From Archangium violaceum (GTDB lineage: Bacteria; Myxococcota; Myxococcia; Myxococcales; Myxococcaceae), in contig NZ_CP069396.1 of the NCBI RefSeq assembly GCF_016887565.1, positions 10,212,001 to 10,276,000 on the forward strand: DNA of 64,000 nt, in the 5' to 3' direction. The notes under the pieces were generated by a model, which was not told the origin of the DNA, did no database searches, and worked only from the letters and a program-made list of their open reading frames with translations. The position numbers were made by a program, and so were the translations under genes. Positions within the stretch are counted from its first letter, which is position 1, and the number at the start of each line of letters is the position of its first letter. This document shows, piece by piece, positions 10,990 to 27,368 of this stretch.

Positions 10990-11122
10990 CCCCTGCCGTC
11001 TACCTCCCCGCGGCCCATCCAGTGGCTTGACGAGCGGACCCGTCTCCCCGTGTGATTCCGGGATGACGGTTTCCAGCCCAGGCGGCTCGCCGGGGAGGTG
11101 CGTGTCCACCCGTCGCTCCCGG

Positions 11123-13210
11123 ATGGAGTGGCACCTCGGTTCGGTCCTGCTGACCCTGGCGCTGCTGGGAGGATGCGCTACGGGCCATCCGCGAGGGAGT
11201 GCGCTGGGCGGCTTCGGCCTGCACTCGCGCTCCTCGTCATCCCGCCATGACTTCGGATCGCGACGGCTGGACACCTCCACCGCGACAGAAGCAGCGGCGG
11301 GTAGCGCGGGAGGATTTCCCGAGCAGACGGTGGACGAGTCCGGAGCAGGTGGGGTGCTCGCCCCCTTCCTGGCGTGCACCTCGCCCTCCGAGTTCATCGA
11401 GTCGCAGCGCGGGGTGGACATGTCCCAGCTCGTGGAGGGGCTGGATGACTGGTCCGCCGTCCGGCTCGGTGCATTGGGACCGCTACGCGCGGGCGCCGAC
11501 ATCCTCAACCACAAACGCGCCGCATTCCTCGTCACCGTCGTCCGGGAATACGGAGCCACCCGCGCCGAGCCATTCGCCCTCTTCATCGTCCACTCGGCCT
11601 TCGACAATGACGTGCGCGAGGTGCTCGGGCTGCTGGCCCGGGGCAAACACCTCGGCGAGACACTGGGGCGAATGGGCGCCGTCCGCGAGGCGTTGAGCCA
11701 GCGGGGAATCAACGTGTCGGATTACCAGGACCGCCCCGAGCGCCTCGGAGACATGGCGCGGGGCCTGGCCACTGCCGCCACGGAAGCCCTTTCCACCAGC
11801 GAGCTGCGCCAGGGCGCGGTGGCCCTGAAATACTCCGTTCAGCGAGGGCAGGTACCGCAGCCCTACCAGGAAGCCCTCGACGAGGTAGAGCGGGCGGAGA
11901 TGCAACAGGCCCTCTCGCCAGGGAGCGTAACGCTCAGGAGCTTCGACGCGCTGACGTTCGGAGTGCCAGTGGGCTTCTACAACCTGGTGGCCGGCACGTG
12001 TCACGGCGTGTACTCGCTGTCCCAAGGTCGCTACGAACAGGCCACGCGCGAGCTGTCGGCCGCGGCGGTGCTGGTGGGCTTGTACGCCGGAGGCAAGGGG
12101 GTGCGTTACCTCGCCGAGACCAGGGGTACTCCGAGCGTTGGATGGCGACGGGAAGGGCGGCTCCCGGTACCGGAGTTGGGCTTCCAGGGACTTTCCGAGG
12201 TGGTGGAGCGGCTCTGGGAGCGTCTGGGTGGAGAGGGCATTCGCGAGCTCGCCAGGTACATCCAAGCCAACCGTGAGGCGGCCCTGCTGGTGTACGAGGG
12301 CGGAGAGCCCGCGGCCCTGGCCCTGTACGAGGCCCGGGGCAATGTGGCGAGGGCACAGGCATGGTTGTCGGAAGCCAGACCCCAGCATGCGAGCCCCACC
12401 CCGGCGAGAGCCGGTACTGGCAAGGGATTGGGTGGTGTGGCCTCACTGGTGGACGAGGCAACGGGCCACGGCCGGGAGGTGGTGGAAGCCAAACTCGCGT
12501 GGGCGGAGCTCGAGTCGGAGGGCCCACGCCTGTCTGGAAACGTGGCGGTGCTGGAGAAACAGCGCCCTTCGGTGGACACCCCGCCACCGGGGGCCCAGGG
12601 AGGCGTGCTCTGGCACGAGTACGTCGCCTACTGGGAGACGCGCCTGGGGGAGCTGAAGAAGGGCCAGGCAGCGAAGCCACCCCTGGCTTGGGAGGGTTAC
12701 GAGAAGATGCGGGGGCTGTTCGCCCGGGGACTGGCGTTCGAGCGTGCCATGGTGTCCCTGTTGCGAGCAGACGCGGCCCTGCCCCGAGCCATGCGCCGAT
12801 ACCTCCAAGACTTCAACAGCCCGCGCATCGAGACGAACGTGGGCGTGGCCAAGCGGGGCACCGAGGGGGTGCGCTTCGCGGATGTGCTCGTCTTCGAGGC
12901 AGAGCCCCTTGCAGGACAGCCTCCTCGCGTGGAGACATTCAGCTTCAAGAGCCGCAACCTGTCACTGCTGGAGGAAGACGATTTGACGGCACAAATGGTG
13001 GCGGACGCGAGCGAAGCCCTGCGGTATTACGGCGAAACGCTGAACATCCGCCGGCGCGCTCTGGAACTTTTCGACAAGCAGGTGCCAGTCCAGAAGGTCC
13101 GCCTCATTTACGAAGGCGGCGAGCTCAGGCCCAAGAAGCCCCAAGAGCAGAAGGCTGCCGTGGAAGAAACGGGGAGGAAGGTCAAGGGAGTGGAGGTGCT
13201 GTTCCAATGA
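11123..13210 (+). CDS. Large lipoprotein, possible secreted effector with C-terminal catalytic-like domain
   Basis: A 695-residue protein starting MEWHLGSVLLTLALLGGC with lipobox LGGC; the open frame extends 32 codons upstream, but this start gives a proper lipoprotein signal. The middle is helical with hydrophobic Gly/Ala-rich segments (LSAAAVLVGLYAGGKGVRYL). The last 160 residues look like a separate globular domain with conserved-looking charged positions: RFADVLVFEAEP, VETFSFKSRNLS, ASEALRYYGETL and VQKVRLIYEGGELRPKK. A PD-(D/E)xK nuclease core is conceivable (ADVLV followed by SFKSR), but the usual Glu/Asp before x-K is Ser here, so this is weak. The stop overlaps the next gene's start (ATGA), implying coupled translation. 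I do not recognise a named family. A polymorphic effector with a cognate partner downstream is inferred. Confidence 0.6.
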   Translation: MEWHLGSVLLTLALLGGCATGHPRGSALGGFGLHSRSSSSRHDFGSRRLDTSTATEAAAGSAGGFPEQTVDESGAGGVLAPFLACTSPSEFIESQRGVDMSQLVEGLDDWSAVRLGALGPLRAGADILNHKRAAFLVTVVREYGATRAEPFALFIVHSAFDNDVREVLGLLARGKHLGETLGRMGAVREALSQRGINVSDYQDRPERLGDMARGLATAATEALSTSELRQGAVALKYSVQRGQVPQPYQEALDEVERAEMQQALSPGSVTLRSFDALTFGVPVGFYNLVAGTCHGVYSLSQGRYEQATRELSAAAVLVGLYAGGKGVRYLAETRGTPSVGWRREGRLPVPELGFQGLSEVVERLWERLGGEGIRELARYIQANREAALLVYEGGEPAALALYEARGNVARAQAWLSEARPQHASPTPARAGTGKGLGGVASLVDEATGHGREVVEAKLAWAELESEGPRLSGNVAVLEKQRPSVDTPPPGAQGGVLWHEYVAYWETRLGELKKGQAAKPPLAWEGYEKMRGLFARGLAFERAMVSLLRADAALPRAMRRYLQDFNSPRIETNVGVAKRGTEGVRFADVLVFEAEPLAGQPPRVETFSFKSRNLSLLEEDDLTAQMVADASEALRYYGETLNIRRRALELFDKQVPVQKVRLIYEGGELRPKKPQEQKAAVEETGRKVKGVEVLFQ

Positions 13211-14547
13211 AGAGGCTGAAGTCATCGGACTTGAAGGCGGAGGACAGCCTCACCTTCACGTTCGAAGGTGCCTTCGACCAGCAAGCGGCACTCGATCGCC
13301 AGTTGGAGCCCGTCCTCCAGGCGCTCGAGGAGTACGCGGGCGAGTGGATGCCGGACGTCGTTGAAGGCAAGCGACAGCGCAAATACTCCCGCGCCGCCAT
13401 CTGGAAGTCCATGGAGGAGAAGCGCGACGAAAACAGCACGTCCATCGTGCTCGGTCGCACGAAGTGGCCCGTGCTGTATATGCGACTCCGGCTCTACTTC
13501 CCGCCGCTCCCTCCCGAATTGCGCATCACGCTCGAAGTGAAACCCCTGTCCTTCTTCTCCGAGGCGGAGCGCTGCCGGAAACTCGTGGACATGGTGCGCG
13601 CCTGGGCCACCCACCATCCAGTCACCCACGCCGACGCCAGCAGCCTGGCAGAAGACCAGTTGTCGGACGCCCCCTTCTTTGGCCGCGATCTGCAGACCTC
13701 GGTGAGAGACGGGTTCGACAAGCTCTACGCGCTGTCCTGGCTCAACGTCTTCGGCCCCAAGCTGGTGGAAGCCGTCGGCCGCGAGCGCATGCTGTCCACG
13801 CCAGCCCACCGGGTGGAGGAACTCCCCAACGGCTCCATCCTCCTGGTGACGTGGCCCATCGCCGCCGACTTCGCCAGCGACGAGGCACGCCAGGCCCAGG
13901 CCCGAGCATTCGTCCACCTCCGGCCAGACCTGGTCCTGGACACCGAGCTCAGCACCCTGCGCGAGCGCAGCGCAGCGCTCGCTCCCGTGGAGCCCCGCTT
14001 CCACCCTGACCTGGCGCCTCTCCTCTCGCGCGTGGTGGACCACGTCACCGTCGGCGAGCGCCAGCGCAAGATCGCCGAGCTCAACGCGTACCAGCCACCC
14101 AAGCCGGACGAGTGGCTCCCCGTTGAGTCCGCCCTCCCCCCGGACGTGGAGGACCCGGAGCGCGTGCGCCAATACTACGCTCACCTCGCCGAACGCCTCG
14201 TGGCACTCCTGCACTCCAAGGTGCCCTCCGTCCTCGAGGAGACCCCCGAGTCACTCACGGACGTCGACGCCTACTTCTGGTGCGAGGACTTCCCGAGGGT
14301 CTTCGAGCGCGAGCGCATCGACGAGCACGCGGTACCCGCCGTGGCCGCGTACCTGGGTGAGGTGCTGGTACGCAACCTCGGCGGGCAGTGGATACCTCGC
14401 AAGAAGCTCGGGGAGATGCAGGTGCGCGTTGGCCCGCGCGTCTGGTTCCCCTACGTCCGGGCCCACCGTTACATGCGCTCGCGCCAGTCTCTGCTGGACC
14501 ACTCCCTCACGCAGCTCTACCGCGTCGCCGAGCGCCATCGTTCCTGA
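13207..14547 (+). CDS. Uncharacterised protein coupled to the upstream lipoprotein, possible cognate/immunity partner
   Basis: A 446-residue soluble protein without signal peptide or membrane helices, whose ATG overlaps the upstream stop by 4 bases. It appears to have two halves. The first (residues 1-270) contains LYMRLRLYFPPLPPELRITLE and ALSWLNVFGPKLVEAVG, followed by NGSILLVTWPIAADFASDEA. The second contains AVAAYLGEVLVRNLGGQW and RVGPRVWFPYVRAHRYM. Alternating beta/alpha segments with GxYLGE- and GGxW-type motifs recall immunity proteins of polymorphic toxin systems, but I cannot place it in a named family. A cytoplasmic protein translationally coupled to a secreted lipoprotein fits protection from, or assembly with, that lipoprotein. 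The 3' end faces the multicopper oxidase gene 12 bases away. Confidence 0.55.
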   Translation: MKRLKSSDLKAEDSLTFTFEGAFDQQAALDRQLEPVLQALEEYAGEWMPDVVEGKRQRKYSRAAIWKSMEEKRDENSTSIVLGRTKWPVLYMRLRLYFPPLPPELRITLEVKPLSFFSEAERCRKLVDMVRAWATHHPVTHADASSLAEDQLSDAPFFGRDLQTSVRDGFDKLYALSWLNVFGPKLVEAVGRERMLSTPAHRVEELPNGSILLVTWPIAADFASDEARQAQARAFVHLRPDLVLDTELSTLRERSAALAPVEPRFHPDLAPLLSRVVDHVTVGERQRKIAELNAYQPPKPDEWLPVESALPPDVEDPERVRQYYAHLAERLVALLHSKVPSVLEETPESLTDVDAYFWCEDFPRVFERERIDEHAVPAVAAYLGEVLVRNLGGQWIPRKKLGEMQVRVGPRVWFPYVRAHRYMRSRQSLLDHSLTQLYRVAERHRS

Positions 14548-14552
14548 CCGGA

Positions 14553-14570
14553 GTCCCCACTAGTGAGGAC
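14553..14570. terminator. Short near-palindrome between convergent stops
   Basis: An 18-base near-perfect inverted repeat (gtccccactagtgaggac, centre CACTAGTG) spans the stop codon of the multicopper oxidase gene, 6 bases after the stop of the convergent gene. It may form a small bidirectional stem but has no T-run, so a terminator role is only a suggestion. Confidence 0.25.
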
Positions 14571-16182
14571 CCGGGGCGTGGTTGGCCTCGCCCTCCTTGA
14601 CCTCCACGAACTGCATCATGCCGTGGTCCTCGTGGAACAAGATGTGGCAATGGAACGGGAACACCCCGATGTAGCGCTCGTAGCGGGTGAGCAGCTTGAC
14701 CGTCTGCTGTGGGAGCACCACGATCGTGTCCTTCCAGAGCACCTTCCCATCCGGCATCTCCACCATGAAGGGATTCACGTGGATGTGGAACGTGTGGTCC
14801 AGCGCGTTGGGATTGCCTGGGAGCGCCGGGTCGATCGAGGTGATGACCCACCGATCCACCCTGCCGAGCTTGAGTTGGAGTGGCGGATCATCGGGATCGA
14901 ACTGCTTGCCGTTGATCAGGAACGTCGCGACGCCAGTGGCCGGGTCGATGGCGGAGGAGAACACGACTTTCTGCTCGGTGATCTTCTCGTCCTCATCCAA
15001 CTCGATGGGGGGAAGGGCATGGGGCTTCAGTTCCTCCTCGGTGGGCAGCCGCCTGTGGCGCACTGGCCAGCGCTTCACCACGATGCGGGCCAACACCCGG
15101 CGCTCCGGGACGAGGTCGGCATCTTCCTTCATGTCCATCAGCAGGTAGACGCCCGGCGCCAGCGGCGTGCCATCCTTTTCCACCGCATGCACCAGCACGT
15201 CCGTGCGGTAACCGGAGTACAACTCCGTCGTCTCCACCTTGTCGAGCCGGCCCGTGGTGATGCCGTCATGCGCGATCTGGTACTGGGGAATGACCTTCTG
15301 TGGGTCGTCCTCTGAAACCAACCGGACCTCGAGCCGCTCATGGGCGCCGGCATGGAGGAAGCGCCAGCGGTGCACGTCGCCTCGCGCCATGTGGATGGTG
15401 GGCTCGAACTCGCCATTGACGGAAAAACGCAGCCCCAACCTCGTGCTGAGACTGGGCATGCCTTCAAGCCCAGGCCGGAACGGCTCGTCGGACTCATCCA
15501 GTCCGTTCACCACCTGGCTCGGATCATCGGGGTCCTTGACGCCTGGCCTGAAGAGAATCTCCTGGAAGAAGAAGATGTGCTCCTTGGCCGCGCGGATGGG
15601 GGGCAGCTCATCAATGGCTCCCCGGATGATGAGGGGGCCAGCCATGCCACTGGCGACCTGGACGGCCGTCGAGCCGTGCTTGTGAGCGTGGTACCAGTAG
15701 GTCCCCGGCGGATGGTCGTTGGGAATCTTGATCTCGTAATGAAAGTGCTCGCCAGGGGCGATCTGGACCTTCACGTTGTCCGAATTGCCGGCCGGAGAGA
15801 CATGCAACCCGTGAACGTGGAGATTGGTCGTGTTGAGACCATGCATCCCGTTCTCGTGCCCCGTGTCCGAACCAGGCTCGTCGTGACCGGACTCCCCGTG
15901 CTCGGGCGCCTCATGACCGGGCTCCTCGTGCTCGGACTCCTCGTGAGGGAGGAAGTTGCTGATCGCCACGAGCAGCGTGTCCCCCGGGCGCCGCTCGATG
16001 AGGGGCCCCATCAACTTCCCATTGTAGGAGCGCAGCTTGACCTGCTCCTCCACCATCTTCCCGGTCGCCGAGTCGAACCGGACGACGGTATTGGTTGCGT
16101 ACTTCACATCGAGCTTCACGGTCTCATCCTTCTTCTTGTGAAGCCGTGATTCGAGGTCCTGCATGCCTTTCTCTTCGATCAT
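14560..16182 (-). CDS. Multicopper oxidase with His/Glu-rich insertion
   Basis: A three-cupredoxin multicopper oxidase of 540 residues that couples substrate oxidation to four-electron reduction of O2. All four copper-binding motifs are present: HVHGLHV (residues 122-128), YWYHAHKH, HTFHIHVNP and FPFHCHILFHEDHGM, the last carrying the type 1 Cys-His and a Met axial ligand. Residues 80-114 are a low-complexity insertion with seven His and many Glu (EEPGHEAPEHGESGHDEPG), a likely metal-binding loop next to the trinuclear site. No Sec or Tat signal is seen at the N terminus (starts MIEEKGMQDLES), unusual for CueO/laccase types. Another Met six codons in could be the start. It lies after a hairpin at the end of the 16.4-25.3 kb operon and 192 bases away, so it may have its own promoter. 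Confidence 0.9.
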   Translation of the reverse strand: MIEEKGMQDLESRLHKKKDETVKLDVKYATNTVVRFDSATGKMVEEQVKLRSYNGKLMGPLIERRPGDTLLVAISNFLPHEESEHEEPGHEAPEHGESGHDEPGSDTGHENGMHGLNTTNLHVHGLHVSPAGNSDNVKVQIAPGEHFHYEIKIPNDHPPGTYWYHAHKHGSTAVQVASGMAGPLIIRGAIDELPPIRAAKEHIFFFQEILFRPGVKDPDDPSQVVNGLDESDEPFRPGLEGMPSLSTRLGLRFSVNGEFEPTIHMARGDVHRWRFLHAGAHERLEVRLVSEDDPQKVIPQYQIAHDGITTGRLDKVETTELYSGYRTDVLVHAVEKDGTPLAPGVYLLMDMKEDADLVPERRVLARIVVKRWPVRHRRLPTEEELKPHALPPIELDEDEKITEQKVVFSSAIDPATGVATFLINGKQFDPDDPPLQLKLGRVDRWVITSIDPALPGNPNALDHTFHIHVNPFMVEMPDGKVLWKDTIVVLPQQTVKLLTRYERYIGVFPFHCHILFHEDHGMMQFVEVKEGEANHAPGPH

Positions 16183-16327
16183 CGTGTCCGCTCCGGGTGG
16201 TAAGTAGGGTTCAGCCCATCACCAAGATTGAGGTGGACCGGCGCGGATGTGATGCTTCCTCCCGCTGCTATTGGCTCACCCGGAAGTGCGAGGGACCTGT
16301 CACATCGCACACGACCCCGGAGACACG

Positions 16328-16362
16328 AAGGGAGGTGACGGCTCGCTCGCCACCTCCCTTTT
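16328..16362. terminator. Hairpin ending the 25.3-16.4 kb operon
   Basis: A perfect 10-bp stem (aaggaggtg-type arm at 16328-16337 pairing with cacctccctt at 16351-16360) with a 13-base loop lies 12-15 bases past the stop of the carboxymuconolactone decarboxylase-like gene. The T-run (TTTT) is on the plus-strand side; the minus-strand transcript has only TT after the stem, so it is an imperfect intrinsic terminator in the operon's direction. Confidence 0.55.
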
Positions 16363-16374
16363 CCAACCGCCCTT

Positions 16375-16743
16375 TCAGCCAGTTGCCTCGAGCTCTTGCT
16401 CCCTGAGCTCTTGGAGGATGCCCAACGAGCTGGCCACCTTGTTGAATCCCGCATACACCGACATGAACAGGAGCAGCTCCTCCAACTCCGCGAGCGTCAT
16501 TCCCTGCTTGAGCGCCATGTCGACGTGGGTCTTGTAGGGGCCGCCGGCATTGACGTTGCCGCACACGATGTCGATGGCGATCGTGATGAGCGCCTTGGTC
16601 TTCTGGTCGATCAGCGGCAATCCCCACACCTCGCCAGCCGAGCGGATGCAGAAGTCGCCCCACCGCTGGCTGATCGACTTCAGGGCGGCCTGGAGCTCCT
16701 CGTCCCCCAGCACCGCGTTCTTCTCGATCGGAATCGAGCTCAT
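16375..16743 (-). CDS. Carboxymuconolactone decarboxylase (CMD/AhpD-like) family protein
   Basis: A 122-residue all-helical protein of normal length for the CMD family, with the characteristic segment KALITIAIDIVCGN..., then PYKTHVDMALKQGMTLAELEELLLFMSVYAGF. The family includes gamma-carboxymuconolactone decarboxylases and AhpD-type peroxidase partners. The AhpD ExxxCxxC/H pair is not complete here: there is one Cys in DIVCGN and a His in KTHVDMA, so peroxidase activity is uncertain and an isomerase/decarboxylase-like role is possible. A strong Shine-Dalgarno (AAAGGAGGAG) precedes the ATG. It is the last gene before the hairpin, 15 bases after the EthD-like gene, and probably shares its transcript. 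Confidence 0.85.
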   Translation of the reverse strand: MSSIPIEKNAVLGDEELQAALKSISQRWGDFCIRSAGEVWGLPLIDQKTKALITIAIDIVCGNVNAGGPYKTHVDMALKQGMTLAELEELLLFMSVYAGFNKVASSLGILQELREQELEATG

Positions 16744-16758
16744 CGTTGCTCCTCCTTT

Positions 16759-17679
16759 CTAGGCATCCATGGGGGGGCGGCCGGTCAGCATGAGGTGGGT
16801 CACGTCCTCCCTCAGCTGGTTGGTGGCACCGATGTTCGTGATGAGCTCGGCCACCATGGAGCTCCGCTGGCCGGCGAGCGTCATCCGGTCGCCGTAGACG
16901 AACGTATGGGCCTTGCGCTCCGGGAAGGGGCTGAGCTGCTTGACGTACTTCCCCAGGTCCGTCACCGCGCCCGTGAACGCGCTCGAGGCGAAGAACGCCT
17001 CCATCTCCAGCCGGGACTGGAAGGCGATCTCCATGGCCGCCTGGTATTGCTTCTCCGGTGCCTCGCTGTGCGAGACGCCGGCCGCGTCCGGGCGGGAGTT
17101 GTCCACCTCGTCGAACAGGTGCAGACGGAGCTTGAGAACCCGGTCGCTCTCCGCGAGGGCGGGCGCGAGGCGCTCCGTCAGGTGCTGGCGGAAGTCCTCC
17201 ACGGGGATGCCATCGGCCTTGCGCAGCAGCACGTGGAACTTCTGCGCGCCCACCGCGCCGTTGGGCGAGCCGTCGTCGAGGCGGTCGACGTAGGTCCTGC
17301 TGTTGCCCGGGGACGAGTTGTACCCGATGGCCTTCCGGAACAGGTTGTGCTCGTCATCCATCAGGATGGCCGCGGCCTGGAACCACGTCCGGCGGTCCTC
17401 CTCGCTCCTGAACGTCAGCTCGGCGATGCCGTCGAACTGGTCCTCGTCCGGAGTGGAGGTGTCCACTCCCTCGATGGTGGGCCAGGTGCCCCCCTCGTTG
17501 TGGGCCAGGTGGAACTGCCAGTACTGGTGCTGCCCCGGCAACCGGGCGCAGACGGGGCCGTGGACGTTCCTCCAGTAGTGACTGAACAGCTCCAGGCTGA
17601 TCCCTCGCCGCTTCCACAGGAGCACGTAGAAGGCCACCCTGCCGTTCTGATCCCTGCTCGCATGATTGCTCGTCTTCAT
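16759..17679 (-). CDS. EthD-domain protein (ferredoxin-like dimeric barrel)
   Basis: A 306-residue protein with two ferredoxin-like alpha/beta-barrel halves. The N-terminal half matches the EthD pattern: FYVLLWKRRGISLELFSHYWRNVHGP, with the conserved YWxxxHGP. The second half repeats the theme (KFHVLLRKADGIPVEDFRQHLTERLAP), suggesting an internal duplication. Members of this fold bind or act on small hydrophobic or quinone-like substrates. A strong AGGAGGAAGG site precedes the start, only 2 bases after the DJ-1/PfpI stop, so translation is probably coupled. The exact activity cannot be assigned. Its place between DJ-1-like and CMD-like proteins suggests handling of reactive small molecules. 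Confidence 0.75.
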   Translation of the reverse strand: MKTSNHASRDQNGRVAFYVLLWKRRGISLELFSHYWRNVHGPVCARLPGQHQYWQFHLAHNEGGTWPTIEGVDTSTPDEDQFDGIAELTFRSEEDRRTWFQAAAILMDDEHNLFRKAIGYNSSPGNSRTYVDRLDDGSPNGAVGAQKFHVLLRKADGIPVEDFRQHLTERLAPALAESDRVLKLRLHLFDEVDNSRPDAAGVSHSEAPEKQYQAAMEIAFQSRLEMEAFFASSAFTGAVTDLGKYVKQLSPFPERKAHTFVYGDRMTLAGQRSSMVAELITNIGATNQLREDVTHLMLTGRPPMDA

Positions 17680-17681
17680 TG

Positions 17682-18308
17682 CTACCTTCCTCCTGGTTGG
17701 GGGGCACTGGCCCGTTCGATCTCCCGGATGAACAGCTCCATGAACCGGTCCACGACCGCCGGGTGCTTGCCGGTGATGAGGTCGCCGTCGACGACCAGCT
17801 CAGCCGTCCCATCGCCCTCGTAGACGACCTCTCCCCCGGCGTTCTCCACGTCGCAGAGGATGTTGTGCGCGCAGGTCACCCGGCGGCCCCGGATCAGCTC
17901 GGTGTCCGCGCAGAAGAGCCACAGGCTGTGGCAGATGGCGCCCACCTTCAGCCCCGGCGTCCGCATGACCTTCCGGAGGAATTCCACCGCGGGGGCCTGG
18001 TTCTTCTGCCCCTTCTTCACCGTGACCTGGTACCGCAAGCGATCCATCGCATAGGCACCGATCGCGATGATGCCCTGGTAGTCCTTGGGGTCGGCGTGGG
18101 CCACCTCCTTCGAGACCACCACGTGGTCCTCCACCTGGCCATTGTCTGGATTGGCTCCGAAACGCAGCGACGCGTTCCCCCACAGCGCGGACATGTACTC
18201 GACCTCGTAGCCCCGCTGTGGAAAGTACTCGTTGAACCTGCGGAACTCGGTCTGGTCGAAGTGCTCCTCGATGAGCACGCCGATCCTTTTCCTGCTCTGG
18301 CTTGGCAT
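17682..18308 (-). CDS. DJ-1/PfpI family protein
   Basis: A 208-residue protein with the DJ-1/PfpI class I glutamine amidotransferase-like fold. The N-terminal strand KRIGVLIEEHFDQTEF carries the family Glu, and the nucleophile elbow is VGAICHSLWLFC with the reactive Cys. RVTCAHNILCDVENAGGEVV and GDLITGKHPAVVDRFMELFI complete the fold. Relatives act as glyoxalases/deglycases, chaperones, proteases or hydratases. The insertion between the first strand and the elbow is longer than in small DJ-1 proteins, closer to PfpI-type members. AGGAGAG lies about 8 bases before the ATG. It is 38 bases after the NTF2-like gene and 2 bases before the EthD gene, so clearly in the same operon. Confidence 0.85.
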   Translation of the reverse strand: MPSQSRKRIGVLIEEHFDQTEFRRFNEYFPQRGYEVEYMSALWGNASLRFGANPDNGQVEDHVVVSKEVAHADPKDYQGIIAIGAYAMDRLRYQVTVKKGQKNQAPAVEFLRKVMRTPGLKVGAICHSLWLFCADTELIRGRRVTCAHNILCDVENAGGEVVYEGDGTAELVVDGDLITGKHPAVVDRFMELFIREIERASAPQPGGR

Positions 18309-18346
18309 CTGTCGTCTCTCCTGTCTCGAAGGCGGAGTCCGGCCGC

Positions 18347-18913
18347 TCAGGTCGTGATCTGCTTCAGCAGCCGGTCCGGGGCGAAGACGTCGCGGTAGAA
18401 GGTGAGCTGCTCGGTCTTGAGGTAGCAGCCGCCGCGATCCCCGCGCCTCATCCAGGTCACGTTTCCCTTGGCCAGGGTCTCGTTCGTCTCGTCATCCACG
18501 CACTTCCACTCGAAGTAGACGATGTCGTGGTGGAACATGACGATCGGCCAGCACATGGTGACGCCCGGCTGGGCGATGAGCGCCCACCAGTGCCGCTCGC
18601 GCTCCTTCTGCTGCTCCAGCCCGAAGTAGGGGCCGTCCTGGCACAGATAGACGAGATCCTCCCGGTACTCGCCCGCCAGGATATCACCCCGCCCCTGCCT
18701 CAAGGCCTCGCAGTGCGTGGGCCACCAGGCCTTGTTCTCCCGTTCGATCTGCTCGAGCGTGTAGTCGGGTCCAATCGCTGGCAACGTGGCCTCCTTCTTC
18801 GCCACGAGCCTCTCTCCCTCCGCGATGAGCTTCGCCCTCAGCTCCTCGGGAACCAGGCCCGGCCTCGAGTAGTCCGCGATGAGCTCCGCGTAGTAATTGA
18901 GCCGCTTCTTCAT
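18347..18913 (-). CDS. NTF2/SnoaL-like small protein
   Basis: A 188-residue soluble protein. An N-terminal helical part (YYAELIADYSRPGLVPEEL) precedes a curved-sheet region with aromatic strands: DGPYFGLEQQKERERHWWALI, MCWPIVMFHHDIVYFEWKCVDD and GCYLKTEQLTFYRDVF. This is the pattern of NTF2/SnoaL-like domains, which serve as isomerases, dehydratases or ligand-binding scaffolds. I recognise the fold type only, not a named family. The RBS AAAGGA is present. It sits 69 bases after the phosphatase gene and 38 bases before the DJ-1-like gene. Its position links the signalling half of the operon to the enzyme half. Confidence 0.6.
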   Translation of the reverse strand: MKKRLNYYAELIADYSRPGLVPEELRAKLIAEGERLVAKKEATLPAIGPDYTLEQIERENKAWWPTHCEALRQGRGDILAGEYREDLVYLCQDGPYFGLEQQKERERHWWALIAQPGVTMCWPIVMFHHDIVYFEWKCVDDETNETLAKGNVTWMRRGDRGGCYLKTEQLTFYRDVFAPDRLLKQITT

Positions 18914-18982
18914 GGAATGACTGTCCTTTCTGGATCGTGTTGGCGCCGATCCGCGCGCGTACGTCTCCTGTCGTCCCTCGAC

Positions 18983-20026
18983 TCAGGCGTCGAATGGGCT
19001 GTCGGGGCCCTGGTAACGAATGACGAGCATGGCGATGTCGTCCGACTGCGGCGCTCCGGCGGCGAAATGCCGCACGTCGGCCATGACGTCCCGCACCAGG
19101 TCGGGCAGCTTCAGATCACGCAAGCGATCGAGCGTGGTCTGGAGGCGCTCCTCGGTATACAGATTGCGCTGCTCGTCCATCGCCTCGGTGATTCCATCGG
19201 TGTAGAGGAAGATGCAGTCTCCCTCTCGCAGGGTGATCTTCCCCGACTTGAACTGGAACCCGGGCGCGAAGCCGAGCGCGATCCCCGTCTTCTTCTCCAG
19301 CATCGTCACCGGCGCCTCGCGGGGCACGATGAAGGGAGCGTTGTGCCCTCCGTCGCAGTACTCCAGCTCACCGGTACGCACGTCGAGCAGGCCGCAGAAC
19401 ATGGTCACGAACATCAGCGCTTCATTGCTCTCGGCGAGCGCGTCGTTCACCTTCGCGATCGCGTCACAGAGGCTCGCGTTGGAAGGGACGTGGTTCTTGA
19501 TCAGGGTACTGGTCACCGCCATCAGCAGCGCCGCGGGAACCCCCTTCTCCGAGACATCTCCAATCATGAAGAAGAACCGGTGGGGGTCGACCCAGAAGTA
19601 GTCGTAGAGATCTCCCCCGACCCCGAGGGCTGGCTGGATCAACGCGTGGAGAGCGAACTCGTCACGGTTCGGGCATTTGGGGAGGAGCTTCGGCAGGAGC
19701 CCCCGTTGGATTTCTTGCGCGGCGTTCATCTCGCTCTCGATCCGCGCCTTGTTGGCGACCGTCGCGCGAAGGCTCTCGGTTCGCGCCGACAGCTCGGTGG
19801 CCAGCTCCAGGACGAGCTTCGCCAGGTGGCAGATATCCTCGTCACCATCCTCCTGAACCAGCGCCCCGAGGCGGCGTCGGACCCCCTCGCCCGGAGGAAG
19901 ACCCAACCTCACCATCTCCTGGGCGATCGCGATCAGCTCCTCGTGCTGTGGGCTCCTCGGGACTCCTGAGGAGACGTGCCCGGGTGACAGCATGCGTTGC
20001 GTGCTCATCTCAATCACCTCCGTCAT
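18983..20026 (-). CDS. SpoIIE/RsbU-type PP2C serine phosphatase
   Basis: A 347-residue protein. About 125 N-terminal residues are helical and include an RsbU-like linker (ESEMNAAQEIQRGLLPKLLP) that joins to a PP2C phosphatase domain. Metal-binding motifs are visible: GVGGDLYDYF, IGDVSEKGVPAALLM, CDGGHNAPFI, LYTDGITEAMDE and PQSDDIAMLVI. In partner-switching systems such enzymes dephosphorylate a STAS-domain antagonist and so free a sigma factor or other target from the RsbW-type kinase. Its start overlaps the kinase stop (ATGA), so kinase and phosphatase are made together. No PAS or GAF sensor is recognised in the N-terminal part, so the input signal is unclear. Confidence 0.92.
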   Translation of the reverse strand: MTEVIEMSTQRMLSPGHVSSGVPRSPQHEELIAIAQEMVRLGLPPGEGVRRRLGALVQEDGDEDICHLAKLVLELATELSARTESLRATVANKARIESEMNAAQEIQRGLLPKLLPKCPNRDEFALHALIQPALGVGGDLYDYFWVDPHRFFFMIGDVSEKGVPAALLMAVTSTLIKNHVPSNASLCDAIAKVNDALAESNEALMFVTMFCGLLDVRTGELEYCDGGHNAPFIVPREAPVTMLEKKTGIALGFAPGFQFKSGKITLREGDCIFLYTDGITEAMDEQRNLYTEERLQTTLDRLRDLKLPDLVRDVMADVRHFAAGAPQSDDIAMLVIRYQGPDSPFDA

Positions 20027-20454
20027 GTCTCGCCCCGGCGCCTGTACATCACCAGGGTCGTCCTGTTCTTCAGACCGGTGCTCTCGTGATGGAAGGCGTC
20101 CACGCTCTTCGTGATGAGGAAAAGTCCCAGCCCGCCCATCGCCCGTTCATCCAGCGGGCAGGTCAGATCCTCTTCGGTGGGCAGCGACACCGACATCACG
20201 TCGAAGGGCACGCCGGTGTCCTCGATGTCGAGGGTCAGCGCCCCCGGGTCGAGATGCATGCTCAGCACGAGCATTCCCGTGAGCCCCGCCTCGGCGTAGC
20301 CGTGGACGATGATGTTCGTCGCCACTTCATCCACGGCGAGGCGCAACCGATAGGAGGCGTGGCCGTCGAGCCCCGCGGCAGCCGCCGCCGCGAGGGTGAA
20401 GGCACCGATCGGGGCGAGCGACTCCAATGTTCCCGGGAAGCTCACGGCGCTCAT
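20023..20454 (-). CDS. RsbW-like anti-sigma factor / serine kinase (GHKL ATPase)
   Basis: A 143-residue single-domain HATPase of the RsbW/SpoIIAB type. Visible motifs are the N box LAVDEVATNIIVHGY, the ATP-lid region IEDTGVPFD and GGLGLFLITKSVDAF. These kinases phosphorylate STAS antagonists and sequester a sigma factor or another protein. It overlaps by 4 bases both the STAS gene upstream and the phosphatase gene downstream, a complete antagonist-kinase-phosphatase cassette in one transcript. No sigma-factor gene is in the window, so the output partner is elsewhere or is one of the enzymes of this operon. Confidence 0.9.
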   Translation of the reverse strand: MSAVSFPGTLESLAPIGAFTLAAAAAAGLDGHASYRLRLAVDEVATNIIVHGYAEAGLTGMLVLSMHLDPGALTLDIEDTGVPFDVMSVSLPTEEDLTCPLDERAMGGLGLFLITKSVDAFHHESTGLKNRTTLVMYRRRGET

Positions 20455-20804
20455 GCGGGCACCCTCCTCCGTTCCAGGGCCAGCGATTCGGGCAGCTCGT
20501 CGAGGAGCGTGACGCTCTGGTGGATGCCGGTGAGCTGGAGGGTCTGCAGCACGCTCTCCTGTGCTCCGACGAGGATGAGCTCCACGTCCTTGCCCAGCTT
20601 CTGCTTGGCGAAGATGAGGACACGCAGCCCGGCACTGGCCATGTACCGGAGCTCCTTCAGAACCAGGACGAGGCGCTTCGGCTCACGGGTGGCGGCGAGC
20701 TCCACCATCTCCTTGAGCCTGAACGCCGAGGAAGCATCCAAGTCACCCATGAGCTCGATGAGAGCCGTTCCATCCAACACATCCAAAGAGACTTCCAGTG
20801 CCAT
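20451..20804 (-). CDS. STAS-domain anti-sigma factor antagonist (second of two)
   Basis: A 117-residue single STAS domain of the RsbV/SpoIIAA type. The conserved loop reads YMASAGLRVLIFAKQ with Ser57 at the phosphorylation position. The N terminus is MALEVSLDVLDGTALIELMGD. The start at 20804 is chosen over a Met 7 codons upstream because AAAAGGAGTG sits 8 bases before it. The stop overlaps the RsbW-like gene by 4 bases. It is 96 bases after the GlgX stop, with a potential stem in that gap. It is probably the direct substrate of the kinase encoded next to it. Confidence 0.92.
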   Translation of the reverse strand: MALEVSLDVLDGTALIELMGDLDASSAFRLKEMVELAATREPKRLVLVLKELRYMASAGLRVLIFAKQKLGKDVELILVGAQESVLQTLQLTGIHQSVTLLDELPESLALERRRVPA

Positions 20805-20847
20805 GAGACCACTCCTTTTGTTCATTCAATTGACCGCGATGAGAAGA

Positions 20848-20885
20848 AGGCCAGGCTTCCGGCGCGGCACTCCGGAGGACGGCCT
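20848..20885 (-). other. Imperfect stem between glgX and the STAS gene
   Basis: Outer arms aggcc/ggcct (20848-20852 and 20881-20885) enclose an inner stem ttccgg/ccggag. On the minus strand it is followed by TTCTTCTC, then the strong RBS of the STAS gene. It could be a weak terminator or attenuator that lowers expression of the signalling genes relative to glgX. It might also be no more than local GC-rich complementarity. Confidence 0.3.
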
Positions 20886-20900
20886 CGCCCGACCCGGGCG

Positions 20901-23027
<2,127 letters not shown>

Positions 23028-23029
23028 GG

Positions 23030-23410
23030 TCACGCACTCCTCTGATCGGGGGAACCGGCGTCTGGCGCGCGCTGCTCCTCGAACGAGCCGGGCAGCGCCT
23101 CCTCGAGCGTCTTCGTCACCGAGAAGAACCGCAGGAACCCCGTGATGCTCATCACTTCCTCGATGTCCTGGCAGACGCCCACCAGGGTGAGCCGCGCGCT
23201 CCGGGCGAGGGCCTCGCGGTGGAGCAGGAGCAGGGAACGCAGGCCGGCGCTCGACATGTACGTCGTCCGGGTCATGTCGATCAGGAGCGCGGCCCCCTCT
23301 CGGAACCGCGATGAGAGGGTCTTCTCCAGCTCGGGAGCGGTCCTGCCATCGATCTCTCCCGAGATCTCGGCAACGGTGAAGTTTGGGTAGTCTTGGATCT
23401 GGATTTCCAT
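23030..23410 (-). CDS. STAS-domain anti-sigma factor antagonist (first of two)
   Basis: A 126-residue STAS protein: MEIQIQDYPNFTVAEISGEID at the start and the phosphorylation loop TYMSSAGLRSLLLLH (Ser54 expected). The C-terminal 20 residues (FEEQRAPDAGSPDQ) are a disordered tail. The start at 23410 has AGGAG 10 bases upstream. An in-frame GTG at 23440 overlaps the upstream stop (GTGA) and would add 10 residues, so this alternative cannot be excluded. It is divergent in sequence from the second STAS protein of the operon, so the two may answer different phosphatases or bind different kinases. The GlgX gene begins 2 bases after its stop. Confidence 0.9.
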   Translation of the reverse strand: MEIQIQDYPNFTVAEISGEIDGRTAPELEKTLSSRFREGAALLIDMTRTTYMSSAGLRSLLLLHREALARSARLTLVGVCQDIEEVMSITGFLRFFSVTKTLEEALPGSFEEQRAPDAGSPDQRSA

Positions 23411-23436
23411 GGCGTGGGTCTCCTGGGTGGGTGAGG

Positions 23437-25314
23437 TCACCGGTCAACGGGCTCGAGGCGCACCCTGAACTTGAGGGTCGTCCGCGTATCGGGCAGGCGG
23501 ACGGTGAGCCCGTCGGCATCGAAGTCGGAGTAGGGCTCCCCATCGGCGGTCACGCTGCCGATGCGGATCCGGCCCGGAGGGAGGATGTCGGGCGCGACGC
23601 GGAGCAGGCCGTCCTTGAAGGCGCCCGGCCGAGGCTTGAAATAGAAGTCCATCGGCTGCTTCGTGATGAGCAGGTTGGTGTAGACGGCGGCCAGGTAGCA
23701 GAGCTCGAAGGCGTGATAGCCGCTCATGGAGTGGCTGCCCTTGAGCCGCTCGTTGCCCATGAGGTACGGCACGCCGTTGGCGAGCACGTTGAAGTAGACG
23801 GCGCCGTCCTCGTGATCGAGGAAGAACGCGTTGTAGAAGGACGAGGCCTCGCGGGCGTGGCGCAGCGCCGTCTCATCCCCGAGCGAGCCAGCGAGGATCA
23901 GGTAGGCGAGGATGGCCTGCTCCTGCTGCCACCAGGCCTTCCGGTCGTGCCACGTGAAGTGGTACTGCGTCTTGCCCGGGCGGAGCATCCGCTCCATCAC
24001 GTCGTACCAGCCGCCGCGCTGCCGGTCCGAGCCCACGGCCGGCATCGTCTCGCCGAGGGCGCGCGCGAGCTCCACGTACCGCGCGTCCGGCCGGAGGTGG
24101 TGGATGCGCATCAGGTTCCAGGCGATCTTCGCGTTGTGGCCGACCACCGCGCGGTCCTGCTGCCACCGCCACTCGCGGTCGGGGCTCCAGTCCTCGTGGA
24201 AGCGCTCCTGCACGAAGGGGCTGCGGAAGGGCTCGGGGAAGCGCCGCACGATGGTGTCGGCGGTCTCGGCGAGGAAGTCGGCGTAGCGCTCGTCGCCGGT
24301 GGCGAGGAAGAGGTTGAGCAGATAGGCCGGCGCGTGGTCCCCCACCGAGTTCCAGTTCTTGCGCGCGCGGTTGTCACCGAGCCGCGGACTGCGCCCATCG
24401 AGGGTGATCGGATCCAGATGGGAGAAGTAGCCGCCCTGCTCGGAGGGGTCGCGGAAGTACCGGCGGAAGAGGGAGACGGTGCGCTCCGCGTCCTCCAGGA
24501 TGCGCGGGTCGCCGGTGATGCGGTAGGTCTGGACCGGCCCGGCGAGCGCGTAGATCTGCTCGTACGCGGGGATGGCGTCGTAGTCGTCGCCGAACTCGGA
24601 GGCGAAGATCTTGTCCTCCACGGCTCCGACGCGATCCTTGACGGTGGAGGCGCGAACCTTCTCCTCGTGGCCCGATCGCACGTCGATGCCGTGGTACCAG
24701 TAGACGATGTCGTCCTCGACATCCCGGAAGCGCATGTGCTCCCGGAGGTACTCGGTGCCCTTCTCGGCGGCCTCGAGGTAGCGATCCTCTCCCGTCATCA
24801 GGAAGGCCGTGGCGAAGCCGTAGACGAGGCGGGAGATGGTGTCGGTCTCCTGCCGGACGGTGGCCCGGCTCAACTTGCGGCCATCGAGGCTGATATGGGT
24901 GCGGTATTGGCTGTAGTCGATGGGGCCGCCCTCGAACTGGGCACGCAGGTAGAACTCACTGAGCTCCTGGATCTGCTGGATCCACCAGTCCCGCTCCTCG
25001 GCGCGGTACCTGCCCGGCTCATCCCCCACGAAGGTGAGCTGCTGCGCCTCGAACTCCAGGCCGCCATCCTCCGGGTAGAAGGTGCCGTAGACATAGAGGT
25101 AGCACCCCGGCACGAGCATCTCCTTCATCTTGTCGGTGCAATCCCGATAGGGCTCCCCCAGGTTGCGGAGAAGTTTCGCGTGGGCCGCGGGGGCAATGCC
25201 GATGGAGAACTCGCGTCCATCCGACGTCTTCAGCTTGAAATCGCCGGACACGGGGTCGGCGGAGACGACGTATCCCGCGATCAAATCGGAGAAGGAGAAG
25301 TCGGTACCTTTCAT
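23437..25314 (-). CDS. AGE-fold ((alpha/alpha)6-barrel) protein with N-terminal beta domain
   Basis: A 625-residue protein. Residues 1-110 form a beta-rich, OB-like domain (IAGYVVSADPVSGDFKLKTS and YLYVYGTFYPEDGG). The rest resembles the N-acylglucosamine 2-epimerase / cellobiose 2-epimerase helical barrel: ISRLVYGFATAFLMTGEDRY, GDHAPAYLLNLFLATGDERY, KIAWNLMRIHHLRPDARY and KAWWQQEQAILAYLILAG, with many Trp/His residues lining the expected active cleft (YWYHGIDV, FTWHDRKAWWQQEQ). A sugar epimerase/isomerase or a sugar-binding role is inferred; the substrate is not known. The start at 25314 has AAAGGA upstream; 29 further codons upstream lack support. It is the first gene of the operon that continues with STAS-GlgX, which suggests a shared carbohydrate theme. 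Confidence 0.75.
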   Translation of the reverse strand: MKGTDFSFSDLIAGYVVSADPVSGDFKLKTSDGREFSIGIAPAAHAKLLRNLGEPYRDCTDKMKEMLVPGCYLYVYGTFYPEDGGLEFEAQQLTFVGDEPGRYRAEERDWWIQQIQELSEFYLRAQFEGGPIDYSQYRTHISLDGRKLSRATVRQETDTISRLVYGFATAFLMTGEDRYLEAAEKGTEYLREHMRFRDVEDDIVYWYHGIDVRSGHEEKVRASTVKDRVGAVEDKIFASEFGDDYDAIPAYEQIYALAGPVQTYRITGDPRILEDAERTVSLFRRYFRDPSEQGGYFSHLDPITLDGRSPRLGDNRARKNWNSVGDHAPAYLLNLFLATGDERYADFLAETADTIVRRFPEPFRSPFVQERFHEDWSPDREWRWQQDRAVVGHNAKIAWNLMRIHHLRPDARYVELARALGETMPAVGSDRQRGGWYDVMERMLRPGKTQYHFTWHDRKAWWQQEQAILAYLILAGSLGDETALRHAREASSFYNAFFLDHEDGAVYFNVLANGVPYLMGNERLKGSHSMSGYHAFELCYLAAVYTNLLITKQPMDFYFKPRPGAFKDGLLRVAPDILPPGRIRIGSVTADGEPYSDFDADGLTVRLPDTRTTLKFRVRLEPVDR

Positions 25315-25484
25315 CTCAGCGTCCTTTCTGGGTAACTGCGCTGTTGGGGTAGAGGAGAAGTCGCTGGATGTGATGGAGCGCACCCGTGGCGTCCGGGGCA
25401 TGACGCACCGCGGGACTCCGGGGAGGGCCGAGCAGCCGTCACACCCGTTGGCGGCCCGTCGCTTGCCTGCTGAGAACCGCTCCT

Positions 25485-25979
25485 TCAGCCCTCGAAGCGC
25501 CTCGGGCCGCCGTGGAAATGGCGGTCCAGGAAGGCCTCGGCGGACTCCCGCGCGGCACGCGTCTCGGACGAAGACCCACCGTCCTCGCCCCAGTCGGCGA
25601 ACCGCGCGCGCTCCAGCACCGACGACGGGCGCGGGTCCGTGTCGGGCCCGAGGACGCGCTCCACGGCCGAGAGCAACGCGTGCGCCTGAGCCACCACAGC
25701 GAGCGCCTCCTCGAACGAGACGCGCTTCCCGGCCAGCTCATTGAACAGCCGGCAGTCGTAGCGGCGGCAACCTTCCGGGCGCTCCGCGTAGACCGAACAC
25801 CGCCGGTCCTTCAAGGCCGTACAGCCCTGCCGGACGGCGGGCGAGCCATCCGCGAGCGCCACCACGTCGAGCCCGGTGCGCCGGGCCGCTTCGACTTCGG
25901 AGCCCTGGAGCGGAACGTGGCTGAAGAGGTTGCCGTCACAGCACAGGCCGCAGCGACGGCACAGCTCGGACAGGGACAT
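25485..25979 (-). CDS. YkgJ-family cysteine cluster protein
   Basis: A 164-residue protein with the Cys pattern of the YkgJ/CxxCxxCC family: CRRCGLCCDGN at residues 7-17, then CTALKDRRCSVYAERPEGCRRYDCRLF. The family probably binds a metal or Fe-S cluster. The C-terminal 80 residues are helical and less conserved. It begins 6 bases before the end of the upstream gene on the same strand, so both are probably one transcript. The 170 bases between its stop and the AGE gene start contain no gene; a promoter for the AGE operon is expected there, but no convincing -35/-10 pair was found. Confidence 0.85.
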   Translation of the reverse strand: MSLSELCRRCGLCCDGNLFSHVPLQGSEVEAARRTGLDVVALADGSPAVRQGCTALKDRRCSVYAERPEGCRRYDCRLFNELAGKRVSFEEALAVVAQAHALLSAVERVLGPDTDPRPSSVLERARFADWGEDGGSSSETRAARESAEAFLDRHFHGGPRRFEG

Positions 25980-25985
25980 GGAGCT

Positions 25986-27368
25986 TCAGCCCACCTCGCG
26001 CACCGGGGGCTCGTCCCCACCCTCCGAGCCGTCCTCCTCGGGGCTCGCGGGCGCGGGCTCGTCCTGGAACGCGCTGGGCAGCAGGTTGAAGGGCAGCACC
26101 TTGGCCAGGGCCACCAGCAGCAACAGCCCTCCTGGCGCCGCGAAGATGGCGAGCGCCGGAATCGCCTTGGCCACGTCGATCAACTGCGCCCGCATGCGCT
26201 GGCGCTCCTCGGCGGTGAGCGGCTGCCTCCGCGCCGCCTTGGTGAGCAGGTGGTACAGCTCGCCCGTCTCCCGGACCTCCTGCATGAGCCGGTGGAAGTT
26301 GCGCTCCATCGTGTCCTGCATGCTCGACACGAGGTCCTCTCCCATCACGTCGGCCGCGGAGGACACGGTGAAGACATCCACCACCGAGCGGTTCTTCGCG
26401 TAGAACTCGGCGACCTCCAGCTCCAGTTGGTGCACGGTGCTCTCGGGCACCCGGAGCGCCAGGGCCAGCCGCTCGATGAAGGCGCGCTCGCCCCGGGAGC
26501 GCCGGCCGTCCACCAGCGAGGCCAGCAGCGTCTGCTCCAGGATGAAACGCCGCAGGTCCACGCTGCGCACGTCCTTCACCGCCGTCTTCAGGGGGTGGCG
26601 GCGCTCGAAGGACTCCCTCACGGCGGCACGCAGCTCGCCCTCCAGCGCGTGCGGAAGTCCCAGGTCCTCCACCTGGCGGAGGATGGCGCGACGCGCCGAG
26701 TAGGTGGGTGGCCGATCCACGCACGCCAGGCCCGTGAGCACCTCCACGAGCAGCGCCTTCTGCCGGGCGGCGAAGTCGATCCGGCGCCGGGCCATCTCCC
26801 GGTTCAACCCCTGGCGGGCGAAGTAGTCGAGCGCCTGCCTACCGAACATGTGCGCGTCCGCGTAGAGCGCCCCATTGTGGAGGACGAGCCCGTAGGCCGG
26901 ATCTCCCGACAGCGACAGGGCGCGGCGCTCCAGCGCGTCCTCCACCCTGCTCCACAGCCGCCGGGGCACCTCGTGCCCCTGGCGCAGCTTCTCCTCGAGG
27001 GCCTGGGCCTCGTCCAGCTGTCCGGTGAGGATGGCGAAGAGGAGCAGGAGCTGCTCGCGGCGGGGGCCCGCGGGCGTACCGGCCAGGGAGGCGATATCCA
27101 GGGCCATGCGCGCCAGGGTGCGCACCACCGCGCGGAAGAGCAGCTCCTCGGGAGCCCCCTCGGCGGGCAGGCCGCCCACCCCGTCCGCCGGAGTGCCGTA
27201 CAGCAGACCGCTGGCACGCAGCATCCGGCGCAGGTACGCGCGGGCCCGGGCACGCCCAGAGAGGGACTCGGGGAGCTCCAGAGGCACGAGGAGCCCCGGC
27301 GCGCGCCCATGGGCCGCGACCGACTCCTCGAGCAACGAGGAGAGCCATCCCGCCTTGCCTAAGTGCAT
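25986..27368 (-). CDS. TerB/LETM1-like membrane-associated protein
   Basis: A 460-residue protein. The central part (residues about 295-350) resembles a TerB-like helical domain: ILEQTLLASLVDGRRSRGERA and FIERLALALRVPESTVHQLE. Near the C terminus a basic helix (TAEERQRMRAQLIDVAKAIP) leads into a hydrophobic segment ALAIFAAPGGLLLLVALAKV and PFNLLPSAF, very like the conserved core of LETM1 proteins. An acidic tail follows. The start at 27368 is chosen for GGAG at 6-base spacing; the longer frame upstream is non-homologous. It is divergent from the HSP90-family gene across 265 bases holding a direct repeat. The role is unknown; ion homeostasis or a membrane adaptor is suggested by the fold. Confidence 0.65.
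   Translation of the reverse strand: MHLGKAGWLSSLLEESVAAHGRAPGLLVPLELPESLSGRARARAYLRRMLRASGLLYGTPADGVGGLPAEGAPEELLFRAVVRTLARMALDIASLAGTPAGPRREQLLLLFAILTGQLDEAQALEEKLRQGHEVPRRLWSRVEDALERRALSLSGDPAYGLVLHNGALYADAHMFGRQALDYFARQGLNREMARRRIDFAARQKALLVEVLTGLACVDRPPTYSARRAILRQVEDLGLPHALEGELRAAVRESFERRHPLKTAVKDVRSVDLRRFILEQTLLASLVDGRRSRGERAFIERLALALRVPESTVHQLELEVAEFYAKNRSVVDVFTVSSAADVMGEDLVSSMQDTMERNFHRLMQEVRETGELYHLLTKAARRQPLTAEERQRMRAQLIDVAKAIPALAIFAAPGGLLLLVALAKVLPFNLLPSAFQDEPAPASPEEDGSEGGDEPPVREVG

Follow-up and report, generated by a model that had tools for sequence, protein, structure and literature searches.

An icfG-type partner-switching operon in Archangium violaceum and natural AGE::STAS fusions that point to a possible enzyme target

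Gene content of the locus

The 64,000-nucleotide stretch of the Archangium violaceum genome analyzed here (contig NZ_CP069396.1, positions 10,212,001 to 10,276,000, from now on referred to as the window; the genome is a single contig of 13.2 Mb) contains an operon-like block in which the components of a partner switch, namely two STAS proteins, an RsbW-type serine kinase and a SpoIIE-type phosphatase, stand among metabolic enzymes. Ten open frames were found on one strand from 25314 down to 16375, in agreement with an earlier note, made from the sequence letters, that had described a ten-gene partner-switching block with metabolic enzymes between the parts of the switch. Gene set and order can be read directly from the window and are as follows, together with a hairpin and the insertion that contains the whole operon.

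23437..25314, minus strand: AGE-fold protein (Slr1855-type) with an N-terminal domain and an (alpha/alpha)6 barrel; PF07221, 81.6 bits
23030..23410, minus strand: STAS1 (Slr1856-type), phosphosite Ser54 (codon 23249-23251); PF01740, 65.9 bits, and TIGR00377
20901..23027, minus strand: GlgX glycogen debranching enzyme; TIGR02100, 712.4 bits against a cut-off of 640.9
20451..20804, minus strand: STAS2 (Slr1859-type), phosphosite Ser57 (codon 20634-20636); PF01740, 59.9 bits
20023..20454, minus strand: RsbW/SpoIIAB-type serine kinase (Slr1861-type); PF13581, 78.1 bits
18983..20026, minus strand: SpoIIE/PP2C-type phosphatase (IcfG-type); PF07228, 163.3 bits
18347..18913, minus strand: NTF2/SnoaL-like protein, 188 amino acids; predicted fold with Foldseek, alignment to relatives
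17682..18308, minus strand: DJ-1/PfpI protein, nucleophile Cys126; PF01965, 56.2 bits
16759..17679, minus strand: EthD-domain protein; PF07110, 63.8 bits
16375..16743, minus strand: CMD-like protein; PF02627, 43.6 bits
16328..16360, minus strand: hairpin with a 13-bp stem just 3' of the CMD gene, possible operon end; RNA fold -27.2 kcal/mol, z -1.92
16256..25444, no strand: 9,189-bp insertion with the whole operon; empty site in L150 (genome G005)

Searches against Pfam and NCBIfam back nine of the ten gene labels of the earlier note. The tenth, the NTF2-like protein, gave no match in the Pfam search; its label is supported by an AlphaFold2 model (pLDDT 85.8) for which Foldseek returned SnoaL/NTF2-like folds (best E 9e-5) at modest query-normalized TM-scores of about 0.33-0.44 across the eight matches at E <= 0.001, and the protein is 62-80% identical to 18 aligned relatives, mostly cyanobacterial. 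With gene starts chosen from the sequence, 26 nucleotides (nt) separate the AGE gene from STAS1, 2 nt STAS1 from GlgX and 96 nt GlgX from STAS2. STAS2 and the kinase gene, as well as the kinase and phosphatase genes, overlap by 4 nt, after which gaps of 69, 38, 2 and 15 nt lead to the NTF2-like, DJ-1, EthD and CMD genes, respectively.

The earlier note knew of no described system with this gene set, which is incorrect. With AGE, STAS1, GlgX, STAS2, RsbW and SpoIIE genes in one operon-like block, the locus is an icfG-type operon, corresponding to the icfG operon of Synechocystis (slr1852-1861), which has been under study since the 1990s and is tied to growth under low carbon and with glucose (PMC12329169, PMC8670252, PMC11619594). 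The operon is given as slr1852-1862 with Slr1855 (epimerase), Slr1856 (antagonist), GlgX and IcfG in PMC8670252, and as containing the kinase Slr1861, Slr1856, Slr1859, IcfG and an isoamylase in PMC12329169.

As the earlier note had pointed out, no sigma factor is at hand. A whole-genome search gave 53 Sigma70_r2 matches, none of them inside the window and none closer to its edge than about 124 kb, so that no sigma factor is encoded with the switch in the window. Between 16150 and 25700, no sigma-70 promoter-like and three terminator-like sites were found, compared with 0.9 and 4.4 in shuffled sequences, a result that carries little information in a genome so rich in GC. At about 12.10 Mb of the same genome (C1:12103421-12104974), two STAS and two HATPase_c_2 domains are grouped, possibly representing a second partner switch.

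Lateral acquisition and spread of the operon

The insertion is directly visible in a comparison with the nearest same-genus genome, G005, where only 3 bases separate the counterparts of window positions 16255 and 25445, with 94% identity on the right flank and 86% on the longest left-hand piece. GC content is 0.656 within the insertion and 0.698 elsewhere in the window. The AGE gene was matched in none of the 38 other near genomes, and a set of 195 genomes of the phylum, the window's own aside, yielded seven genomes with paralogues of 43-44% identity and another with a match of 28%. These seven same-family paralogues (L018, L019, L020, L021, L023, L024 and L025) each adjoin a DJ-1 gene, and in the stretches fetched around them STAS, kinase, phosphatase and NTF2-like genes were all unmatched. 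Of 96 family genomes, only the window's own gave a match to the NTF2-like gene. Vertical inheritance in the host lineage is ruled out by the lack of the AGE gene in the near genomes, the presence of distant paralogues only and the single occurrence of the NTF2-like gene, and the block is almost certainly an icfG-type operon gained by lateral transfer. The earlier note had named absence of the gene order from related genomes as grounds for giving up its proposal. The order is indeed absent from near relatives, in all likelihood because the block was acquired sideways, but it recurs across bacteria.

A gene for a multicopper oxidase by Pfam (14560-16182) comes next on this strand, starting 192 nt past the CMD gene. 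It was rejected as an eleventh operon member because it is not part of the insertion and the relative has the corresponding stretch at its empty-site locus; the hairpin lies between the two genes. This hairpin is without a T-run, folds moderately better than shuffled sequences and is absent from the list of terminator-like sites. In two further loci from same-genus genomes (L152 and L154), the left match stops at 10989 and the right match starts at about 25980, and window positions 10989-25986 look like a variable site within the genus.

Genome contigs were scanned with an AGE alignment and the best 80 of at least 496 confirmed stretches were kept, which are thus the nearest relatives and not a random draw. 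Among these 80, 52 belong to Cyanobacteriota and two are unplaced, with the rest distributed over Pseudomonadota, Chloroflexota, Deinococcota, Verrucomicrobiota, Myxococcota, Actinomycetota, Planctomycetota, Armatimonadota and Nitrospirota. An AGE match at E <= 1e-100 was found in 24 of 291 sampled cyanobacterial genomes. Plasmid records contain an AGE match in 21 of 72,556 cases, 17 of which cover 80% or more of the protein, and on plasmids of Streptomyces, Deinococcus and Runella AGE-STAS-GlgX-STAS has an ATP-binding protein, a SpoIIE protein or both encoded after it.

The AGE protein is encoded by a frame of its own in 50 of the 80 loci, referred to as unfused. STAS1 is present in 50/50 and GlgX in 49/50 of these (62-70% identity), and the order AGE-STAS1-GlgX-STAS2 was seen in 43. 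The seven exceptions are three loci at a contig end (L036, L080, L084), two without a visible STAS2 (L062, L063) and two that are split (L060, L069). RsbW was found in 39/50 and SpoIIE in 36/50 unfused loci, or in 37/39 and 34/39 where at least 6 kb of downstream sequence was available. Pairwise correlations between the distances of AGE, STAS1, GlgX, STAS2 and RsbW amount to 0.51-0.79 over 33 rows (L055, L077, L089 and L096 left out), values as high being reached in 0 of 2000 permutations, which fits a unit travelling together. The search for co-occurrence suggested in the earlier note thus recovers the core order dozens of times and in several phyla, and the comparison shows the cassette to be a mobile unit of several phyla and of plasmids and no cyanobacterial speciality. 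The AGE gene's absence from all 38 near genomes would also suit a chance neighborhood of unrelated genes in a large genome, yet this explanation is refuted by the recurring core order, the distance correlation and the insertion of the block in one piece, and its probability is negligible.

AGE::STAS fusions and the target of the switch

The residues that characterize an Rsb/Spo module, namely the STAS serines, the N- and G-boxes of the kinase and the PP2C aspartates, are directly seen in the window. The phosphosite is serine in 48/48 STAS1 relatives and in 43/43 separate STAS2 proteins tested, counts from which STAS frames of at least 260 amino acids are excluded (48 of 50 STAS1 and 43 of 45 STAS2 of unfused loci kept). 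Kinase residues E43, N47 and D79 are found in 39/39 relatives and the G-box glycines in 38-39 of 39, the metal-binding aspartates of the phosphatase in 35-36 of 36, and the catalytic D352, E389 and D462 of GlgX, a TIGR02100 member, in 70/70 relatives tested. In L055 (Hormoscilla), near position 14441, a single STAS2 frame contains two tandem near-identical STAS domains. The residues needed being present, the window kinase probably acts on both STAS1 Ser54 and STAS2 Ser57. Activity of the kinase on both STAS proteins and of the phosphatase on STAS1 is reported for Synechocystis only, where Slr1856, unlike Slr1859, is dephosphorylated by IcfG (PMC12329169).

The other 30 of the 80 loci have an AGE frame that continues without a stop through 100-166 further amino acids, a tail matching STAS2, as for example in L026, L028, L068, L093, L105 and a plasmid of Nostoc sp. 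C052. Judged by best-domain score, the tails are nearest to STAS2 in 30/30 cases (35-102 bits) and score lower against STAS1 (13-34 bits) and other STAS domains (5-24 bits); the assignment is one by scores, since a STAS tree, with 111 columns and long branches, lacked the length to resolve the groups. The control set of other STAS domains, 28 rows from five genomes of which 27 are sound (L127 excepted), consisted of the best 30 of 41 matches in four genomes plus five from the window's own genome, less seven cluster members. When 11 fused proteins were searched with Pfam, PF07221 was found in all 11 and PF01740 above its cut-off in eight, from Cyanobacteriota, Actinomycetota, Planctomycetota, Armatimonadota and Nitrospirota. 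The Nostoc sp. C052 plasmid record contains the fused protein as one coding sequence of 723 amino acids, named only 'AGE family epimerase/isomerase', and a Gemmobacter plasmid has a coding sequence of comparable length, 711 amino acids. Of the 30 fused loci, 27 have GlgX (45-50% identity) upstream and two have it downstream, and in one it is unseen. In the flanks fetched, RsbW/SpoIIE genes were found at 0/30 fused loci, where kinases elsewhere in the genome were not searched for, compared with 39/50 unfused loci.

The phosphosite is the column in which the fused tails have diverged most. It is occupied by S in 8, T in 10, A in 4, P in 3, K in 2, R in 2 and E in 1 of the 30 tails, and the 12 without Ser/Thr cannot be phosphorylated at that site. 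Relative to 41 separate STAS2 proteins, variability increases more at Ser57 than at any other of the 117 columns, from 0 to 2.44 bits against a mean rise of 0.27, with 12 changes in 25 fused rows and none in 36 unfused rows (L055, L075 and L089 left out of the variability comparison). Positions 88, 66, 27, 93, 35, 21 and 58 follow, and G20 and R61 are fixed and Q68 nearly fixed in fused and separate forms alike. The pattern is as expected if the kinase-facing surface, whose columns are placed by analogy with SpoIIAA/SpoIIAB, were to matter only for free STAS2, and we infer that another surface, common to both forms, would contact the AGE barrel.

Based on these comparisons, we hypothesize that STAS2 (Slr1859 type) serves an AGE-fold carbohydrate enzyme as a regulatory domain in detached form, the kinase and phosphatase setting the amount available for docking, and that fusion makes the association permanent and lets the phosphosite decay; we give this roughly equal chances of being right or wrong. 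The RsbW-type kinase would phosphorylate STAS1 Ser54 and STAS2 Ser57, and the SpoIIE phosphatase would, on a signal, strip the phosphate from STAS1, which in its unphosphorylated form would then occupy the kinase. Unphosphorylated STAS2 would dock on the AGE-fold protein, a contact that the covalent STAS domain of the fused relatives would make as well, and set the activity of this protein, with AGE and GlgX acting on glycogen-derived sugars. The switch would thereby act on an enzyme to link glycogen use to a signal of stress or carbon, and a sigma factor may or may not be present as a second output. This mechanism as a whole, in which the RsbW/SpoIIE switch controls the AGE-fold enzyme via STAS2, is the best supported reading, for which the balance of probability is about even. 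It is supported by the AGE::STAS2-type frames, the confinement of nearby kinase and phosphatase genes to unfused loci and the relaxed phosphosite of the fused tails. In addition, low-carbon growth of Synechocystis with glucose is weakened when Slr1859, the STAS2 homologue, is lost, but not when Slr1856 is (PMC11619594). The suggestion of the earlier note that the kinase might target an enzyme is favored by the natural fusions and seems to us a fairly even proposition.

A number of points weigh against control of the AGE-fold enzyme through STAS2. In unfused operons it is STAS1, not STAS2, that adjoins AGE, and in L060 and L069 STAS2-RsbW-SpoIIE lies several kb away from AGE-STAS1-GlgX on the opposite strand. 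Pfam did not see a STAS domain in the fused proteins of L053 and Gemmobacter L139, and STAS_2 fell below cut-off in L099. Ser or Thr is kept at the phosphosite in 18/30 fused tails, including 14/19 of those from Cyanobacteriota, so that the fused form may be phosphorylated there. A quick AGE-domain tree of 74 rows (L077 with a broken frame, which the alignments omit too, L096 with a stop and the near-copies L027, L031, L033, L034, L038, L060, L063 and L069 left out) separates 46 unfused rows, the window among them, from the others at a branch with a Shimodaira-Hasegawa-like approximate likelihood ratio test (SH-aLRT) value of 97, the window grouping on a long branch (0.58) with icfG-type unfused AGE proteins. 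The same tree places the fused forms basal, with a single fused clade not rejected (approximately unbiased test, p 0.652). Since one change on the tree separates the fused from the unfused forms, the contrast between the two partly reflects a single historical event, and either state may be ancestral. The reported control of SigC by Slr1861 means that a sigma output exists in Synechocystis (PMC12329169). Finally, the proposed enzyme target is deduced from sequence comparison.

The nature of the AGE-fold protein itself also bears on this question. H393 and H534 are invariant in 79/79 relatives. Three residues after the GH-motif His, however, where the alignments to 8bry and 8h1k have the Glu of an epimerase, the window has Lys396, as do 79/79 relatives, and Gln385 occupies the site of 8h1k Asp254. 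These substitutions identify an AGE-fold protein for which the epimerase label is not supported, a further point against an enzymatic output. The fold as such is indicated by PF07221, a profile match to 8bry (E 2e-9) and an AlphaFold2 model of the fused relative L026 (pLDDT 79.3, pTM 0.78), whose AGE part, mainly model residues 103-562, aligns with 8h1k and 5x32 at Z 33.7-38, reaching 38 for 5x32.

The Lys in place of the Glu of solved AGE enzymes would also fit an AGE protein that is a sensor, binding a sugar and signaling through its STAS partner to the kinase. RsbR-like sensors consist of an N-terminal ligand-binding domain and a C-terminal STAS domain, and the fused proteins, with an N-terminal barrel and a C-terminal STAS domain, follow the same order; the Ser/Thr that remains in 18/30 tails fits as well. 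A sensor would, however, be expected to keep its kinase-facing surface, yet the phosphosite is the most relaxed column and position 58 is among the top ten. A kinase gene is moreover found near none of the 30 fused loci, elsewhere in whose genomes it was not searched for. We regard a sensor role as rather improbable, though as a serious alternative. A purely transcriptional switch, with the kinase as anti-sigma factor, the STAS proteins as its antagonists, a sigma factor encoded elsewhere and metabolic genes that are merely co-transcribed, has a precedent in Synechocystis. There, the Slr1861/Ssr1600 pair was reported in 2025 to control formation of the RNA polymerase-SigC complex, with Slr1861 as anti-sigma factor for SigC, their contact being a model, and the antagonist Ssr1600 encoded elsewhere; the operon gene list does not include the SigC gene, and the sigma factors targeted by Slr1856 and Slr1859 are called unknown (PMC12329169). 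The 53 Sigma70_r2 matches of the window genome would supply candidate targets. This account leaves unexplained why an STAS2-type domain is part of the AGE frame in 30 of 80 loci and why the fused forms lack a nearby kinase or phosphatase, and a cassette of several phyla and of plasmids would need a fitting sigma factor in each host. We therefore consider an exclusively transcriptional role possible but rather unlikely.

In the open-licence literature, no paper was found on STAS with an AGE epimerase, on glgX with STAS and SpoIIE or on partner switching with glycogen and an anti-anti-sigma factor. While the kind of operon is known already and the block is, almost certainly, a laterally acquired icfG member unseen in the other family genomes searched, the AGE::STAS fusions and the relaxed phosphosite are new and suggest a concrete target, Slr1855 for Slr1859. 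If control of the AGE-fold enzyme by STAS2 holds true, the icfG system gains an enzyme target besides SigC, and a phylum-crossing, sometimes plasmid-borne partner switch directly governs an enzyme of glycogen use.

Comparison with known systems

Like the icfG operon of Synechocystis PCC 6803, the window contains counterparts of AGE, two STAS proteins, GlgX, a SpoIIE-type phosphatase and an RsbW-type kinase, and it shares the order AGE-STAS1-GlgX-STAS2 with the Synechocystis salina locus L058. In L058, genes for NTF2-like (78% identity), CMD (63%) and DJ-1 (69%) proteins directly precede AGE, whereas in the window the NTF2-like, DJ-1, EthD and CMD genes come after the switch genes and the EthD gene is extra. 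The DJ-1 nucleophile Cys126 is Cys in 60/60 relatives tested. The redox cysteines of the CMD family are not conserved at the sites checked, with Asn in place of Cys61 in 22/22 relatives and, three residues past this site, no Cys shared by them. In L056 (1886-3460 and 3450-6830), and similarly in L050, L051, L057, L060, L063 and L069, EthD is fused to NTF2-like and CMD to EthD, the L056 CMD/EthD frame of 1,127 amino acids containing glyoxalase and SnoaL domains too; these frames of several cyanobacteria form another module of natural fusions close to the operon. In the window, the kinase gene comes before the phosphatase gene, while L058 has the reverse order; among 32 unfused loci with both genes, the kinase is first in 19 and the phosphatase in 13.

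The fused loci resemble the window in their AGE domain (59-65% identical by tblastn), in GlgX adjoining in 29/30 cases and in a STAS domain of the STAS2 type. They differ in that AGE and STAS form one protein, GlgX belongs to another subgroup and no RsbW/SpoIIE gene lies within the stretch fetched. With the glucose-2-epimerase 8h1k and the mannose isomerase 5x32 of the AGE superfamily, the window protein has the (alpha/alpha)6 barrel and an aligned His393 in common, but it carries an extra N-terminal domain and the Lys396 and Gln385 substitutions described above. A partner switch with an enzyme and not a sigma factor as its output is reportedly also represented by SiaABCD of Pseudomonas, which, unlike the window, is said to lack glycogen genes, to employ a STAS-like protein of another type, SiaC, and to target a diguanylate cyclase.

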